A stretch of DNA of 38,072 nucleotides from the NCBI GenBank assembly GCA_020851375.1, contig JADZCV010000033.1, positions 1 through 38,072 on the forward strand, read 5' to 3'. Positions 23,372 through 31,705 of this stretch are shown in pieces (positions within the stretch are counted from its first letter, which is position 1; every line of letters starts with the position of its first letter). Both the position numbers and the translations under genes were made by a program. The notes beneath the pieces were generated by a model. It did no database searches, was not told the origin of the DNA, and saw nothing but the letters and a program-made list of their open reading frames with translations. This stretch comes from Nitrospirota bacterium (lineage in GTDB: Bacteria > Nitrospirota > 9FT-COMBO-42-15 > HDB-SIOI813).

Positions 23372-24831
23372 GCGTGATGGGTAGAATTATGGGGTATTTT
23401 GGCTACAGCAAAAATAAAATGTCACGTCGTGGATATAGTGCCGCAATTCTGAATAGACTGACCTCTGATTGGGTTACATCGTCCAAGAGCGCCAACGAGG
23501 AAATAAGATATTCCCTGAGAATATTGAGGGCGCGAAGTCGTGAGTTGGCCATGAATAATGACTATGCTCGGAAATTCTTGAAGATGTGTGTTGTGAATGT
23601 GGTAGGTCCATCCGGTATTGCGCTCCAGAATAAAGCAAGGGACATCAATGGCAATTTAGACAAGATTGCAAACGATAAAATAGAAGAAGCGTTTTCTGAT
23701 TGGGGAAAGAAAGAAAATGCTGACGTAACAGGTAGATTATCCTGGCTCGATATGCAGAGACTATTTATTGAGACTGTTGCGAGGGATGGAGAAATACTTA
23801 TACGGAAAATCAAAGGGGCGAATCTCAATAAATATGCCTTCTCCCTGCAGCTCATCGAAGCGGATCATCTTGATGAAAATCATAATAAGACTCTTGAAAA
23901 CGGCAACAGAATAATTACGGGGGTTGAGGTTAATGCGCAAGGGAAGCCTTTAGCCTATCATCTGTTTACCCGTCATCCAGGCGATAATTCATACGGATAC
24001 GATGGCAAGTTATATGAACGTGTTCCCTCAGATGAGATTTGCCATGCCTTCATCACAGAGCGCCCCGGACAAGTAAGGGGTGTGCCCTGGATGCACACAG
24101 CCATGACCAGACTCAATATGCTGGGAGCCTATGAGGAGGCAGAGCTTGTTGCGGCGAGGGTAAGCGCTGCAAAGATGGGATTTTTTACATCCCCTTCCGG
24201 CGATGAATATGTCGGTGATGATAAAGATTCCAGCGGGAATGTCATATCCGAAGCAACGCCTGGAAGCTTTGAGCAGTTACCGCAGGGCGTTAACTTTCAA
24301 TCGTTTGACCCTCAACATCCCTCAAACGCTTTCCCATTTTTCATGAAGACGATGTTAAGAGGCATAGCAAGCGGCCTTGGAGTCTCTTATAACTCGATGG
24401 CCTCAGACCTTGAGGGGGTGAATTATTCAAGCATACGGGCCGGTACTATTGAAGAAAGGGACCTCTGGAGGATTATACAAACCTGGATGACTGAAAATTT
24501 CTGCAATAATATTTTCTCGGATTGGCTGCTCATGACCCTCGGCAAAGGGGCAATCTCATTGCCGCCGTCCAAATATGAGAAATTTAACGCTCCTGTATGG
24601 AATGTACGGGGGTGGCAATGGATAGATCCACTGAAAGATATTAAGGCCAACATTGATGCGGTAACCTTCGGGCTCAAAACCAGGACACAGATAGCGTCTG
24701 AGCAAGGCTACGATCTCGAAGATATATATGAGCAACTACAAGAAGAGCAGAAACTTGCGTCTCAGTATGGCCTTGATTTTATCTTACCAAATACACAATA
24801 CGCGGAGGGGATAGACAATGCGAAAAATTAA
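23368..24831 (+). CDS. Portal protein, lambda family
   Basis: This 487-residue protein fits lambda-type portals: SLRILRARSRELAMNNDYAR, KFLKMCVVNVVGPSGIALQ, QLIEADHLDEN, ERPGQVRGVPWMHTAMTRLN, LGVSYNSMASDLEGVNYSSI and RAGTIEERDLW. It forms the dodecameric DNA channel at the head vertex. The length is normal. It overlaps the protease-capsid gene by 14 bases. Confidence 0.93.
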   Translation: MSVMGRIMGYFGYSKNKMSRRGYSAAILNRLTSDWVTSSKSANEEIRYSLRILRARSRELAMNNDYARKFLKMCVVNVVGPSGIALQNKARDINGNLDKIANDKIEEAFSDWGKKENADVTGRLSWLDMQRLFIETVARDGEILIRKIKGANLNKYAFSLQLIEADHLDENHNKTLENGNRIITGVEVNAQGKPLAYHLFTRHPGDNSYGYDGKLYERVPSDEICHAFITERPGQVRGVPWMHTAMTRLNMLGAYEEAELVAARVSAAKMGFFTSPSGDEYVGDDKDSSGNVISEATPGSFEQLPQGVNFQSFDPQHPSNAFPFFMKTMLRGIASGLGVSYNSMASDLEGVNYSSIRAGTIEERDLWRIIQTWMTENFCNNIFSDWLLMTLGKGAISLPPSKYEKFNAPVWNVRGWQWIDPLKDIKANIDAVTFGLKTRTQIASEQGYDLEDIYEQLQEEQKLASQYGLDFILPNTQYAEGIDNAKN

Positions 24832-26653
24832 GACAGGGAAATTATACAGGACAATTGAGCTTCAAAGGGAAATGATGAATAAAGATGACAGGACTATTGA
24901 TTTGTCCTTCAGTTCGGAAGCGTCCGTGGATAGATGGTTTGGAACTGAAATACTGGATCACGGTCCGCAATCAGTTAGGCTTGGACGTCTGAACGGTGGC
25001 GGGCCGTTATTGTTGGATCATAGTACAGAAAAACAGATAGGTATCGTTGATAAGGCTGTAATCGGGGCAGACCGAAACGGTCGGGCTGTCGTGCGCTTTG
25101 GGAAAAGCGCATTGGCTGAGGAAGTCTACAACGATGTTCTCGACGGAATCAGGCGTAATGTGTCTGTGGGATACCAGATACATAACATGATTTTAGAAGA
25201 GGAAAAAGAAGGTGTTGCCACCTATCGGGCAACAGACTGGGAACCGCTTGAGATTAGTATAGTCCCGATACCGGCAGATACAACTGTAGGGATAGGGAGA
25301 AGCGGAGAGGGTGAACACGAAACAACAATCAGAGAAAGGAAGGGACGAGTTATGAAGTGTGAACACTGTAAACGAGATTTGCAGGAAGGGGTTGCCTGCG
25401 ATTGTAGAAAGACATCACCCCATGCGCATGTGGATGTAGAGGGTATTCAGGCCAAAGCAAGAAAAGAAGAGCAGGAGAGGGTAAGGGAAATTCTGGCGCT
25501 TGGCGAGCAGCACAAATGCCCGGAACTTGCAAGAAAGCACGTTAATGAGGGTACATCTCTTGATGATTTCAGGAAGGTCATGATTGATACAGTCTATTCC
25601 AAGGTGCATGTATCGGATACGCATAATCCTGAAATCGGGATGAATGATAGGGAGAAAAGAGGTTATAGCCTTGTTAAGGCAATTCGTGAAATGTCAGAGG
25701 GAATGTCAGTAAGCGGTCTTGAAAAAGAGGCATCCGATGCAACGGCAAAAATCTGCAAGCGTGATCCCCGTGGCTTCTTTATTCCACAGGATGTTCTTAA
25801 TATTTCAAAGCGTGCCATGCAGGTAGCGGATGCAACAAAAGGCGGATTCCTTGTAGGAACAGATGTCCTGGGAGGATCAATGATTGAGATGTTGCGGAAT
25901 AGGCCCAAAGTGGCACAGCTTGGAGCAAGGACACTGTCGGGGCTGGTCGGTAACGTTGCAATCCCACGGGTAACCGGAGGCGCAACAGCGTATTGGCTGC
26001 CTGAGACCGGCACAGTGACTGCATCAGATCAGGCATTCGGTCAGCTTGGCCTAATACCTCATAGGCTGGTGGGGAACACCGCATACACAAAAGAACTCCT
26101 GATGCAGGCATCGGTGGATGTTGAGGCATTTGTAAGAGAAGACTTAATGACAGTCCTCTCAATTGAAAAGGACCGTGCGACTATAAACGGCCTCGGTTCA
26201 AGCGGAGAACCCCTTGGAATACTAAATACCAGCGGCATCCTGACTGTCACGTTTGGCGCGGCGGCCACATGGGCTAAGCTTGTGGATTTTGAGACACAGG
26301 TGGCAAATGCAAACGCCGACGTGGGTTCGATGGCATATCTCACCACGCCTGCATCCCGCGGCAAATGGAAAGGCATTGTAAGGAGTACTTACAATACCAA
26401 ATTCCTGTGGGATGACGACGGACGCGTAAACGGCTACAGGGCAGAAGTGACTAAACAGGTGCCCTCAGATAAAGTAATATTCGGTAACTGGGCCGACGTT
26501 GTATTTGCTGAATGGGCCGGAATAGATGTGGTGGTTGATCCCTATTCCCTCAAGAAACAGGGGCAGATAGAGATTACCATAACCCTGTACAGCGACATCG
26601 GAATACGGCATGCTGTGAGCTTCTGTGTATCAACTGATTCAGGAGCGCAGTAA
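24818..26653 (+). CDS. Fused prohead protease and HK97-type major capsid protein
   Basis: This 611-residue protein has two parts. Residues 1-160 are an S78-type prohead protease: His68 (LLLDHST), Ser116 (NVSVGYQI), WEPLEISIVPIPAD. A linker with cysteines (MKCEHCKRDLQEGVACDC, from 179) and a coiled delta-like segment (EERQ-type, about 205-300) lead to the HK97 capsid fold (from about 330: ADATKGGFLVGTDV, VGNVAIPRVTGGATAYWLPE, ASVDVEAFVREDLM). Self-cleavage would release capsid subunits. An in-frame ATG at 25352 preceded by AAGGAAGGG could give a protease-free form. GGAGGGG precedes the first ATG. Confidence 0.9.
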   Translation: MRKIKTGKLYRTIELQREMMNKDDRTIDLSFSSEASVDRWFGTEILDHGPQSVRLGRLNGGGPLLLDHSTEKQIGIVDKAVIGADRNGRAVVRFGKSALAEEVYNDVLDGIRRNVSVGYQIHNMILEEEKEGVATYRATDWEPLEISIVPIPADTTVGIGRSGEGEHETTIRERKGRVMKCEHCKRDLQEGVACDCRKTSPHAHVDVEGIQAKARKEEQERVREILALGEQHKCPELARKHVNEGTSLDDFRKVMIDTVYSKVHVSDTHNPEIGMNDREKRGYSLVKAIREMSEGMSVSGLEKEASDATAKICKRDPRGFFIPQDVLNISKRAMQVADATKGGFLVGTDVLGGSMIEMLRNRPKVAQLGARTLSGLVGNVAIPRVTGGATAYWLPETGTVTASDQAFGQLGLIPHRLVGNTAYTKELLMQASVDVEAFVREDLMTVLSIEKDRATINGLGSSGEPLGILNTSGILTVTFGAAATWAKLVDFETQVANANADVGSMAYLTTPASRGKWKGIVRSTYNTKFLWDDDGRVNGYRAEVTKQVPSDKVIFGNWADVVFAEWAGIDVVVDPYSLKKQGQIEITITLYSDIGIRHAVSFCVSTDSGAQ

Positions 26654-27994: not shown

Positions 27995-28180
27995 ATGAAA
28001 GTGAAATTATCTCCAGCTACATGGCTGGAAGTTGGTAACAAAAAACATGCTCCAGACGATATTGTGGATGTGGATGAGGTCACAGGCAGGGGCATGATAT
28101 CAGGCGGCAGCGCCACAGAAATAGTAGAGGAGGTGAAAGGCGATGTTAACACGAAGAGCCGTAGTAGCAGCAAAGATTGA
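27995..28180 (+). CDS. Small unknown protein before the tail tube gene
   Basis: This 61-residue protein starts MKVKLSPATWLEVGNKKHAP and has VDVDEVTGRGMISGGSATEI. Such short proteins with KhAPDDIVDVDE-like segments occur next to tail tube genes. GAGGTGAGAC precedes the ATG. It overlaps the next gene by 38 bases, so its Ser/Lys-rich tail may matter little. Confidence 0.55.
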   Translation: MKVKLSPATWLEVGNKKHAPDDIVDVDEVTGRGMISGGSATEIVEEVKGDVNTKSRSSSKD

Positions 28181-29072
28181 GACCACAGAGGGGACAGCCG
28201 AAACTCTTGCAGCAGGGGATGCAAATTTTCTGGTTGTTGATCCAAAGTTTGATGCAGATATCCCTTTATTTAAGAGAGGTGTTGTTAATGGCAGCCTATC
28301 TCCCTATAATAGCATCCCAGGGAGTCAGATGGCGAGACTGAGCTTCAAGGTTGAACTTAGAGGGTCAGGGGCTGCAGGAACAGCTCCGGCGATAGGAAAA
28401 CTCTTGAAGGCTTGCGGGTTTGGCGAAACCATAGTTGCTTCTACAAGCGTAACGTATGACCCTATATCAACAGGCGTCCAATCACTGACAATGGCCCTTT
28501 ATAGGGACGGCATAAAGAAGCAGCTTAGAGGGGCAAGAGGAACAGTTAAGTATGATGGCAAGGGTGGAGAGCCAGGCATGCTTGATTTCTCATTCCAAGG
28601 TGTTTATGACGGGGTGTCAGACGTTGCATTATTGACCGGCTCAGGGATTGAAACAACCAATCTTCCTGCACTCCTAAATGCTGCGTTCTCTATTGCAAGC
28701 TTCCAGGCAAAAATATCATCAATCAGCATTGATATTGCCAATAAACTTGCCATTCGCTCAGATATTAACAAGGCGGAAGGATATTCCTCATGTCTGATTA
28801 CAGGCAGGGAACCAAAAGGCAGCTTTGACCCCGATGAAGAGCTTGTAGCGACCCATGATTGGTATGGCCGATTCAAGGCCGGAACTCTTGGTGCGCTGAC
28901 ATTCAAATATGACGGCGGGGCCGGAAACATCTGCACTATCACTGCGCCGAAGCTTCAGTATGCAGGCATTTCCGAGGGCAACAGGGAAGATATTGCAACT
29001 CTTGGGGTAGATTTTCTATTGACCAGGTCAGTAGCTGCCGGCAACGATGAAGTTAAGTTTGCGTTTACTTAA
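28143..29072 (+). CDS. Major tail tube protein
   Basis: This 309-residue protein has the tail-tube pattern: VVAAKIETTEGTAETLAAGD, FKVELRGSGAAGTAPAIGKL, LKACGFGETIVASTSVTYDP, then SLTMALYRDGIKKQLRGARG, TVKYDGKGGEPGMLDFSFQG and VYDGV. It stacks as rings around the tape measure. It plays the role of lambda gpV. GAGG lies near the ATG. Confidence 0.85.
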   Translation: MLTRRAVVAAKIETTEGTAETLAAGDANFLVVDPKFDADIPLFKRGVVNGSLSPYNSIPGSQMARLSFKVELRGSGAAGTAPAIGKLLKACGFGETIVASTSVTYDPISTGVQSLTMALYRDGIKKQLRGARGTVKYDGKGGEPGMLDFSFQGVYDGVSDVALLTGSGIETTNLPALLNAAFSIASFQAKISSISIDIANKLAIRSDINKAEGYSSCLITGREPKGSFDPDEELVATHDWYGRFKAGTLGALTFKYDGGAGNICTITAPKLQYAGISEGNREDIATLGVDFLLTRSVAAGNDEVKFAFT

Positions 29073-29086
29073 AAGGTGGAGGTTAC

Positions 29087-29587
29087 ATGGAGAGAAAAGA
29101 GTATGAAATAGGTAGCAAAAAGTTCTATCAGCAGGAGCTGGTGTGGGGACAGATTAAGTGGCTCATTGAATGGGCACGTACAAAAAATATTAATCTGGGA
29201 TCCCTTTCATCTTCAGAAATCCTTGTTCTCATCCAGGAAGAGTTACCTAAAATAATGGCCCTGGTGCTGATAGAAGACGGGAAAAAGCCCGCTGACAAGA
29301 TTTCCGATGGTTTTGAAGGGGTAAAAGGGCTTGAGGAATGGATCAACAGTAATATGACCGGCTCAATCGCAACGGAGGTGATAGCTGATTTTTTTACATT
29401 AAACAGGCCTGCACACCTTATAAACAGGATCAGCAGCCTGTTCAATCTGGCTACTGCGATGACTGGCTCGAAGAAACCCTTGCCATCCTCTGCGACGGGG
29501 ACATTACAAGACTCCCATGGATCCTCGGAAACGTTACCCCAGGAGAATCCGAGCCTTATATCCGCCGACAGATTGAACGGCGAATGA
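29087..29587 (+). CDS. Tail assembly chaperone G
   Basis: This 166-residue frame-0 product has a helical body (EYEIGSKKFYQQELVWGQIK, then LIQEELPKIMALVLIEDGKK and EVIADFFTLNRPAHLINRIS). The last 40 residues (from about MTGSKKPLPSSATG) look like shadow sequence, because the -1 frame there is the natural one. The position between tail tube and tape measure matches lambda G. A strong GGTGGAGG precedes the ATG. Confidence 0.8.
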   Translation: MERKEYEIGSKKFYQQELVWGQIKWLIEWARTKNINLGSLSSSEILVLIQEELPKIMALVLIEDGKKPADKISDGFEGVKGLEEWINSNMTGSIATEVIADFFTLNRPAHLINRISSLFNLATAMTGSKKPLPSSATGTLQDSHGSSETLPQENPSLISADRLNGE

Positions 29588-29763
29588 TGGAGGTGGCAGT
29601 ATTGGGCTTTATTGGAGTGAAATTGCCATGGCATAAAGAGACCACAAAGATTAGGCGCAAAGATCAGGGGATAGGGGAGTTTTGCGGAAAATCTTGCATG
29701 GATGAATGCTCAAGGCTATTTGGTGTGGCGCTGTGGCAAGTTTGTAGGACTTGTCCGGAATAA
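29087..29763 (+). CDS. Tail assembly chaperone GT, made by -1 frameshift
   Basis: Residues 1-103 come from frame 0 up to the T run at 29389-29395. After a -1 slip the frame continues from 29395 to TAA at 29761-29763, adding 122 residues for 225 in total. The added part reads like real protein: CDDWLEETLAILCDGDITRL, PWILGNVTPGESEPYIRRQI, then a Cys-rich end (CGKSCMDECSRLF). In lambda, GT is likewise made by a -1 shift and links the tape measure to tail tube protein. The -1 frame has a TGA immediately before the T run and opens exactly there. Confidence 0.75.
29389..29395 (+). other. T7 slippery heptamer for -1 frameshifting
   Basis: Frame 0 reads GA-T TTT TTT ACA, a perfect X-XXY-YYZ heptamer with all T. 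Sliding back one base puts the ribosome into the open -1 frame, which has its last stop (TGA, 29386-29388) directly before the heptamer. No stem has been folded downstream. Confidence 0.7.
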
Positions 29764-29764
29764 T

Positions 29765-29944
29765 TTATGAAAATAATGTTGTTTCAGGCTTCTTGTTTTT
29801 TAATGATGGAAGTTGAATCAGAATAAATGGAATTAATGGGCCAAAGATAAAGGCTGCGCTTATCCATTTATCAGATCGGCCTTTAATAGAGGCTAAGACG
29901 TAAGTTATATAGGCACTAACGAACCATACCATAATGAATGTCAT
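29765..29944 (-). CDS. Antisense moron: two-helix small membrane protein
   Basis: This 59-residue minus-strand protein lies between rightward tail genes. It starts MTFIMVWFVSAYITYVLASI, then KGRSDKWISAAFIFGPLIPF and ILIQLPSLKNKKPETTLFS. Two transmembrane helices flank a basic loop, the same layout as residues 1-47 of the cargo protein at 2312-2686. The DNA is A+T-rich against its surroundings. Its own near-perfect promoter places the transcript start at or within a base or two of the ATG. These are marks of a moron: an added gene expressed from the prophage. It may alter the lysogen membrane or exclude other phages, but its role is unknown. Confidence 0.75.
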   Translation of the reverse strand: MTFIMVWFVSAYITYVLASIKGRSDKWISAAFIFGPLIPFILIQLPSLKNKKPETTLFS

Positions 29945-29950
29945 AGGATA

Positions 29951-29979
29951 TATATATCGTTTTACGTGGCGGTTGTCAA
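29951..29979 (-). promoter_or_regulatory. Near-consensus promoter of the antisense moron
   Basis: On the minus strand, TTGACA (29974-29979) is followed by exactly 17 bases and TATATA (29951-29956). The expected start site falls near 29944, the ATG itself, so the mRNA should be leaderless. It fires against tail transcription. Confidence 0.75.
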
Positions 29980-29995
29980 TGATAAGGGGTGATTC

Positions 29996-31705
29996 ATGGC
30001 CAGCACAGAACTTAAAATAGTTTTAGGTGCGGAAATAGCACAATTCATATCAGGACTTAAAAATGCTGAGACCAGCATGACCGGCTTCATCAACAAGATC
30101 AAGGGATTTCCAATTCATGCCGCCACCCTTGCAGTTGTAGCGAAAGAAGTTGTGGGCAAGGTCGGCGAACTCATTACCTTCACAGCAGATTACGGAGATG
30201 AATTACTAAAGGCTTCTCAGAAGACAGGCGTGGCAGTTGAAGAACTATCGGGGCTAAAATATGCGGCAGAACTGTCAGGCGTATCTTTTGAACAGTTAAC
30301 AACAAACCTCGGAAAGCTCTCGAAAAACTTATTTGATGCGGCCTCAGGGACGGGGGACGCTAAAGATGCCTTTAAGAAATTAGGGGTTGATGTTAAAGAT
30401 TCAAATGGGAATTTAAGGTCTTCCGAAGACGTTCTTATAGACGTTGCCGAGAAATTCTCGACAATGGAAGATGGCACGACCAAGTCGGCTCTTGCCATGA
30501 AAATATTTGGAAAATCAGGGGCAGACATGATCCCCCTACTTAATCAAGGCGCTGCTGGCATCAAAGAGGCAACAGAGGAGGCAAAAGCATTTGGGCTCGT
30601 CGTAGGCGAAGACGCTGCAAAGGAGGCTGAGGATTTTAATGATAATTTGGATCGCATGAAAGGCCTTGTTAAGGGAGTAGCTACGGCAATCGGCAATAAT
30701 CTGATACCTGCAATAAATGATTTAATAGAAGCTTGGATAGAATACAGCAAAAAAGTCAATAAAACTCCGAGTATATGGGAAGAAATGTGGAAGAAGGCAA
30801 GTCCATCGGCTGAGATTAATGAAAAACTCAAAGGCATCGGGTTTATGCAGGGCGGAGAATTTTGGATTGGAGAAGGTGTTGGTGGAACTATACCCCCAAG
30901 TCAATCCAATGCTAAATGGTCATCAGGAGGGAAAGATAAAAAGAAAAAAACATCTCCGCCGGTAATAGATGATGAAGAGAAAAAGAAAATTGATAAGGCA
31001 AAAAAGGAATACGAAGATTTTATGCAGGCCTATCAGGATGATTTTTCCGCGGCTTTCAACAAAATGGATAGGGAATACGAAGATTTTATGCAGGCCTATC
31101 AGGATGATTTTTCCGCAGCTTTCAATAAGATGGATAGGGAATACGAAGACTTCATGCAGGCCTACCGTGACTCATTTTCGGAGGAAATGCTGCCAACGAC
31201 CAAGACCTTCTCAGAAGGCTGGCATGAGGCCATTAAGAAATACGTGGAAGACACCGGCAGCATGTTCAATCTTGCCACTGATATGGCAAGACAGACCGCA
31301 CAGGCCATGCAGTCCGCCTTCCAGAACTTTTTCTTCGACATGTTTCAGGGGAAGATTACCAGCATGAAAGACCTTCTGCGGGGGCTTCTGACCTTTGCCC
31401 AGCAGGTGGCGTCCAACATCCTTGCAAGCATGGCGACTACGAAGATAATGTCTTGGGTGGGTTCAGCCGCTACTTCTATTCCTGCAGGGGCAATAGGTTC
31501 AGCCGCAGGCGGTGGATTTGTAATGGAGAAAACAGCAAGGTTATCCAGTGAAACTGAGAAGGTCACGGTCAACATCGTCAATTCCGGCAATACTGAAAGG
31601 CCTGATGTCTCATACAGAAGGAGCGACATTGAAGGGCTGGTATTGGATATTATATACCGGGATTACAATCGCAATGGCATGATGAGAAATCTGGGGACAA
31701 CATAA
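29996..31705 (+). CDS. Tape measure protein
   Basis: This 569-residue protein sets tail length. The N-terminal part has the usual TP901/lambda-type helices: LVVLGAEIAQFISGL-like start, YGDELLKASQKTGVAVEELS, LGKLSKNLFDAASGTGDAKD, then STMEDGTTKSALAMKIFGKS and GADMIPLLNQG. A Lys-rich linker and a 22-residue tandem repeat (about 338-400) follow, then a helical C-terminus (MARQTAQAMQSAFQNFFFDM) and a glycine/alanine hydrophobic segment near 500. It is short compared with lambda gpH (853), which suggests a tail well under 100 nm. AAGGGG precedes the ATG. Confidence 0.9.
   Translation: MASTELKIVLGAEIAQFISGLKNAETSMTGFINKIKGFPIHAATLAVVAKEVVGKVGELITFTADYGDELLKASQKTGVAVEELSGLKYAAELSGVSFEQLTTNLGKLSKNLFDAASGTGDAKDAFKKLGVDVKDSNGNLRSSEDVLIDVAEKFSTMEDGTTKSALAMKIFGKSGADMIPLLNQGAAGIKEATEEAKAFGLVVGEDAAKEAEDFNDNLDRMKGLVKGVATAIGNNLIPAINDLIEAWIEYSKKVNKTPSIWEEMWKKASPSAEINEKLKGIGFMQGGEFWIGEGVGGTIPPSQSNAKWSSGGKDKKKKTSPPVIDDEEKKKIDKAKKEYEDFMQAYQDDFSAAFNKMDREYEDFMQAYQDDFSAAFNKMDREYEDFMQAYRDSFSEEMLPTTKTFSEGWHEAIKKYVEDTGSMFNLATDMARQTAQAMQSAFQNFFFDMFQGKITSMKDLLRGLLTFAQQVASNILASMATTKIMSWVGSAATSIPAGAIGSAAGGGFVMEKTARLSSETEKVTVNIVNSGNTERPDVSYRRSDIEGLVLDIIYRDYNRNGMMRNLGTT
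31007..31190 (+). repeat. 66-base tandem repeat within the tape measure gene
   Basis: Two almost identical 66-base copies (31007-31072, 31073-31138) differ at a few third positions, and a partial third copy runs from 31139 to about 31190. Each full copy encodes 22 residues starting EYEDFMQAYQDDFSAAFNKM. Unequal crossing-over here would change protein length in 22-residue steps. Confidence 0.9.

Follow-up and report, generated by a model that had tools for sequence, protein, structure and literature searches.

A small gene, P0001, runs antisense within the tail operon of a prophage in the window (the whole stretch of Nitrospirota DNA that was analysed, 38,072 nucleotides), and superinfection exclusion is suggested by where it lies, by its topology in the membrane and by its relatives. 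The preferred reading, at a probability of roughly 0.6, is that P0001 encodes a superinfection-exclusion protein that would be expressed in the lysogen, be located in the inner membrane and act on incoming tape measure proteins. The assignment of P0001 as a moron is supported by its being an inserted, A+T-rich gene with its own promoter. The features concerned are listed in Table 1.

Table 1. Positions and layout of P0001, its neighbours, the island with the second copy and the antisense genes at related tail junctions
Feature	Position	Strand	Description
P0001	29765..29944	-	Antisense moron, encodes a membrane protein of 59 aa with two helices
-35 element TTGACA	29974..29979	-	17-nt spacer to the -10 element
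-10 element TATATA	29951..29956	-	6 nt before the ATG at 29944
Tail-tube-like protein gene	28143..29072	+	PHROG tail family
G-like tail chaperone ORF	29087..29587	+	Assigned by position
T-like ORF	29584..29763	+	Frameshift from G (chaperone GT), by position and CRTCPE motif
Tape measure protein gene (TMP)	29996..31705	+	PHROG tape-measure models, E 1.2e-59
P0002	2312..2686	-	Hairpin and zinc ribbons, lysogeny module
Island with P0003	C45 263322-273175		L005 10323-20000, running on into L002
L040 and homologs L093/L094			Antisense junction ORF, 55 aa, TTGACT-N16-TATAAT-6 nt-ATG
L045			Antisense junction ORF, 34 aa, TTGACA-N17-TAAGAT-6 nt-ATG
L100			Antisense junction ORF, 62 aa, two helices, TTGAAG-N17-TATAAA-6 nt-ATG
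L038			Antisense junction ORF, 54-57 aa, two helices, extended -10 and Shine-Dalgarno
L103	5829-6887	-	Three tandem paralogous antisense membrane genes filling the 1.3-kb GT-TMP gap

P0001 is a conserved coding gene

P0001 is an ATG-to-stop ORF of 59 codons with the product MTFIMVWFVSAYITYVLASIKGRSDKWISAAFIFGPLIPFILIQLPSLKNKKPETTLFS. An A+T-rich gene for a two-helix membrane protein, directed against the tail genes between GT and the tape measure gene, had been described in the earlier note, and the location, the A+T content (66% in P0001 compared with 53% across the window) and the two helices seen by hydropathy all agreed with that description. An AlphaFold2 model also placed helices at 2-21 and 25-49, with low confidence (mean pLDDT 65.6). 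The turn KGRSDK is positively charged, and a polar C-terminal tail, PSLKxxKPETTLxS, is conserved. The adjacent G/GT pair was assigned on three grounds: gene position, overlapping frames and a CRTCPE motif at the C-terminus, which is seen again in relatives.

A homolog, P0003, is present in the same 2.5-Mb genome and is 63% identical to P0001 over 56 residues, with the C-terminal tail nearly invariant between the two. Identity by codon position was 60/81/41%, and dN was 0.36 while dS was about 2.8, a value near saturation. The bias among codon positions and the excess of dS over dN indicate that the protein is under purifying selection, and P0001 is confirmed, on these sequence comparisons, as a genuine coding gene that is conserved as such. 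No close relatives outside its own genome were found in phage records, viral contigs, genome contigs or 60 relatives, and only profile-level relatives were found beyond the source genome. A candidate relative in L004 (E 0.39) was dismissed as similarity by chance, and P0001 had no match in a library of defence-system models.

Promoter and predicted leaderless layout

The sequence TTGACA-N17-TATATA, which had been claimed to end at the ATG, is present and ends 6 nt before it. Its description as near-perfect was slightly overstated: it is a good match, with 10 of the 12 consensus positions (a consensus match and not an RNA measurement), lacking the highly conserved final T of the -10 element. 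The standard promoter scan omits this promoter because the scan requires that T. When the sequence upstream of P0001 was dinucleotide-shuffled, an equally good promoter at the ATG-abutting position arose with P 0.003. Since only 6 nt separate the -10 element from the ATG, transcription is expected to start at, or one step away from, the A of the start codon, and the mRNA of P0001 is predicted to be leaderless. Owing to this layout with its own promoter, expression of P0001 is predicted from the quiet prophage.

The same arrangement was observed upstream of P0003 (TTGAGA-N17-TATAAT-5 nt-ATG, shuffle P 0.00015), so that an ATG-abutting promoter has been kept in both copies despite unrelated surrounding DNA. 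As a control, viral contigs were scanned for the exact consensus leaderless promoter; among the matches listed, such promoters precede mostly soluble proteins, indicating that leaderless promoters are not a general mark of membrane genes. A palindrome at the -10 element, GATATATATATC, was considered as an operator and rejected, as the window has no other copy of it and its occurrence does not exceed chance expectation. A promoter in leaderless position (TTGACA-N16-TATAGG, 5 nt) was also seen at the start of a J-like tail-tip gene (window 33363), possibly by chance.

No terminator-like site was found on the minus strand between P0001 and 26398. An own terminator is an accessory feature of morons, since some morons have none.

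The GT-TMP junction in related phages

About 90 related tail regions were collected from viral contigs and genomes by their tail-tube homologs. In most of them GT and TMP lie within about 60 bp of each other or overlap, and the gap in the window measures 232 bp; because the gap is closed in most relatives, that of the window represents an insertion, which is the defining trait of a moron. The absence of an insert from most junctions is consistent with the on/off occurrence among relatives that the earlier note proposed to look for; no close relative of P0001 itself was found outside its genome.

Relatives with a larger GT-TMP gap often carry a small antisense membrane ORF there (Table 1), mostly unrelated in sequence to P0001; these ORFs have hydrophobicity in common, not sequence. 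In four independent families (P0001, L040/L093/L094, L045 and L100) the -10 element stands exactly 6 nt from the ATG, and the differences between L040 and L093 are mostly synonymous (dN 0.067, dS 0.47). When the gaps were shuffled, 1-8% of trials gave a hydrophobic antisense ORF (about 6% for the window gap), and no more than 0.03% gave one preceded by such a promoter. The three paralogs of L103 all begin with MTQPS and are 30-40% identical to one another; a weaker promoter (TTGATT-N17-GATTAT-6 nt) precedes the first gene and is lacking from the other two. The L103 array resembles an amplified and diversified exclusion gene.

Promoters in leaderless position were also counted at ATGs with a match of at least 10/12 over the collected loci, window included. 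They occurred at 8 of 1233 antisense ATGs downstream of the tail-tube gene and at 8 of 21977 elsewhere, a roughly 18-fold ratio that is not a clean test because three of the first eight are mutual homologs, at least two (L110 and L133) are not in the gap proper or not membrane genes, and the window itself is counted. The direction of the enrichment on the antisense strand beyond the tail-tube gene is clear.

An antisense membrane ORF was absent from the junctions of L027 (with a gap of 120 bp), L028, L029, L076 and many others. After GT in L029 (from 6644), L076 (from 2341) and L086 (from 5663), sense ORFs with signal-peptide-like starts were found instead of a tape measure gene, and these three phages seem to have a different tail layout.

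A second copy in a satellite-like island

P0003 lies on contig C45, just within one end of a 9.8-kb island that is flanked by exact att repeats, copies of a tRNA-Glu 3' end of at least 44 bp (C45 263322 and 273131). The island encodes a tyrosine integrase, a primase/polymerase-like protein, an HK97-type capsid protein, both terminase subunits and a small HTH protein whose AlpA-like match is weak. No tail genes were recognised in it, nor portal, protease or connector genes. Compared with the prophage of the window, the terminases are 43% and the capsid proteins 32% identical, and P0001 and P0003 are 63% identical; their gene is the sole DNA-level match between the two elements (75% over 80 bp).

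Capsid-forming PICI satellites have been described as cfPICI (PMC11389934). The island shares with them the integrase, primase-like, AlpA-like, capsid and terminase genes and the lack of tail genes, and it is located between tRNA-Glu repeats; it differs in that portal and protease were unrecognised and in having no known helper. From this gene content, the island is likely to be a capsid-forming satellite of cfPICI make-up.

Relationship to the KGRS-hairpin family

P0001 carries a hairpin with a turn of the A-x2-KGRS-x3-W type. In hhalign, P0001/P0003 aligned with eleven zinc-ribbon-type hairpins at 94.8% probability (E 5.3e-8), and P0001 matched phrog_9201 at E 6.5e-4. By profile, the hairpin is thus homologous to those of P0002 and of AGF88078 of Salmonella phage FSL SP-016 (PHROG 8436/9201), the latter a KGRS hairpin located between a gp14-type chaperone and the tape measure. 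The phage members of the family belong to PHROG 8436 and 9201, families with no assigned function, and many bacterial genomes of the source phylum encode members of the family. Unlike these members, P0001 and P0003 lack the C-terminal zinc ribbon that is present in P0002, and have their own conserved tail.

P0002 lies on the same strand as the repressor and integrase. Zinc-ribbon proteins of the P0002 type were found elsewhere in the tail region of Vibrio phage P2 and Providencia phage PSTCR8lys and in other contexts in PseuP_222 and KP12, indicating that they are not confined to the GT-TMP junction. In Klebsiella prophages (L162, L163, L166 and L167), the tape measure or tail gene is immediately preceded by a gene for a three-helix zinc-ribbon membrane protein. 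One of these prophages, phi8.2 (L166), has this gene as two separate ORFs, so that it looks disrupted there.

Comparison with known exclusion systems

The earlier note had stated that no lambda phage gene corresponds to P0001. The phage search indeed returned no match, but the statement overlooks the closest precedent, gp15 of the lambda-like phage HK97, a 62-aa protein whose gene occupies precisely this GT-TMP junction. Like P0001, gp15 has an N-terminal membrane helix, is absent from most relatives and forms its own transcription unit (for P0001, by promoter match). It is a sense gene with a Shine-Dalgarno start, its own terminator, one helix and a YebO-like sequence, whereas P0001 is antisense, predicted to be leaderless, two-helical and not YebO-like. 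HK97 gp15 matched PF13974 (YebO) at 1.2e-8, while P0001 had no match to this Pfam family, indicating that P0001 is not a homolog of gp15, though it may work like it. As presented in PMC10883804, gp15 is a proven superinfection-exclusion moron that blocks DNA injection (Cumby et al. 2012, cited therein), and the exclusion depends on tail tube/tape measure genes.

A second precedent is gp065 of Pseudomonas phage YMC11/02/R656, which matched Imm_superinfect (PF14373) at 1.6e-18; P0001 had no match to this family at E up to 1. The R656 protein, of the T4 Imm type, resembles P0001 in being a two-helix hairpin with a basic turn and in having chaperone-type ORFs on one side of its gene and the tape measure gene on the other, and differs in its sense orientation, zinc ribbon and C-terminal domain. 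In addition, an association with tape measure proteins at the time of injection has been described for SNIPE, a defence protein of the membrane that was reported recently (PMC13190303).

Proposed function and alternative explanations

The precedents of gp15, Imm_superinfect, the SP-016 hairpin, the Klebsiella proteins and SNIPE make exclusion at the inner membrane by way of the tape measure the likeliest function of P0001. For its transcription start, membrane insertion, exclusion, tape measure target and shut-off by late transcription, we infer the following course. In the silent prophage, host RNA polymerase would start at the A of the P0001 ATG, and the leaderless mRNA would run against the tail operon. 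The 59-aa product would enter the inner membrane as a two-helix hairpin and interfere when the tape measure of an incoming siphophage opens a path for DNA through that membrane. Upon induction, late tail transcription would pass head-on through P0001 and silence it, so that exclusion would be limited to the lysogen. The antisense orientation could thus plausibly serve as a switch, with only the minus-strand promoter firing in the lysogen.

A different membrane role in lysogeny or lysis, as a holin/antiholin-like hairpin or as a modifier of the host membrane unrelated to other phages, is unlikely but the best placed of the alternatives. Such roles are common among small two-helix proteins, and the hairpin family, to which no function is assigned, is often found in bacterial genomes as well. 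However, holin genes are normally found in the late operon and not opposing it under a constitutive-type promoter, and the recurrence of such genes beside the tape measure gene, together with the gp15 and Imm precedents, favours exclusion.

It is less probable again that the transcript matters more than the protein, that is, that it extends antisense into T and G and silences stray tail expression in the lysogen, the protein being secondary. The gene is antisense to the tail genes, and the lack of a terminator-like site as far as 26398 leaves room for such an RNA role. Against this, the protein is under purifying selection, and the unrelated antisense genes of relatives are alike in hydrophobicity rather than in sequence. 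In the island, which lacks tail genes that could be silenced, the copy is retained together with its promoter, which also argues that the protein matters.

At a slightly lower probability still, the product could mainly regulate competition between prophage and island, for example by one excluding the other. The greater identity of P0001 and P0003 than of the terminases and capsid proteins, and their being the sole DNA-level match, would fit such a conflict, but there is no sign of satellites in the relatives whose junction carries a different antisense membrane gene.

A chance ORF beside a chance promoter is extremely improbable and was effectively ruled out: although about 6% of shuffles of the window gap yield a hydrophobic antisense ORF, P0003 is a conserved homolog with synonymous-biased change and a promoter at the same position, and antisense membrane ORFs recur in the junctions of relatives.

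Implications for exclusion genes and satellites

Both small exclusion proteins of the membrane and morons inserted at the GT-TMP junction are already known. As far as the literature shows (largely excluding subscription papers), the recurrent antisense orientation and the leaderless layout in several unrelated genes appear to be new, as do the tandem array and the presence of one such gene in both a prophage and a satellite-like island of the same cell.

Superinfection exclusion determines which prophages and satellites share a cell. To our knowledge, few exclusion proteins are known beyond model phages, because they are tiny and unannotated. The fixed GT-TMP address and the promoter layout make exclusion candidates findable in raw sequence, and the address links each candidate to the tape measure on which it probably acts, a pairing that is directly testable. 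The same gene in an island with capsid genes suggests that satellites may carry exclusion too.

A broader generalisation is tentative, and we consider it rather less probable than the function proposed for P0001: the GT-TMP junction of lambda-type siphophages may serve as a dedicated site for cassettes that encode exclusion proteins expressed in the lysogen, many of them antisense and leaderless, and matched to the adjacent tape measure gene. If this is true, tape measure and exclusion gene would move together, amplify and diversify, as in the three tandem copies of L103, and capsid-forming satellites reliant on those tails would borrow the exclusion genes.

Other features of the prophage

At 24818-26653 of the window, a 611-aa ORF represents a fusion of a prohead protease (Peptidase_S78) with an HK97-type capsid domain. 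In the TMP, residues of about 340-395 (near 31014-31180) comprise three near-identical tandem repeats, YEDFMQAYQDDFSAAFNKMDRE, and this pattern suggests a recent change in the coding of tail length.
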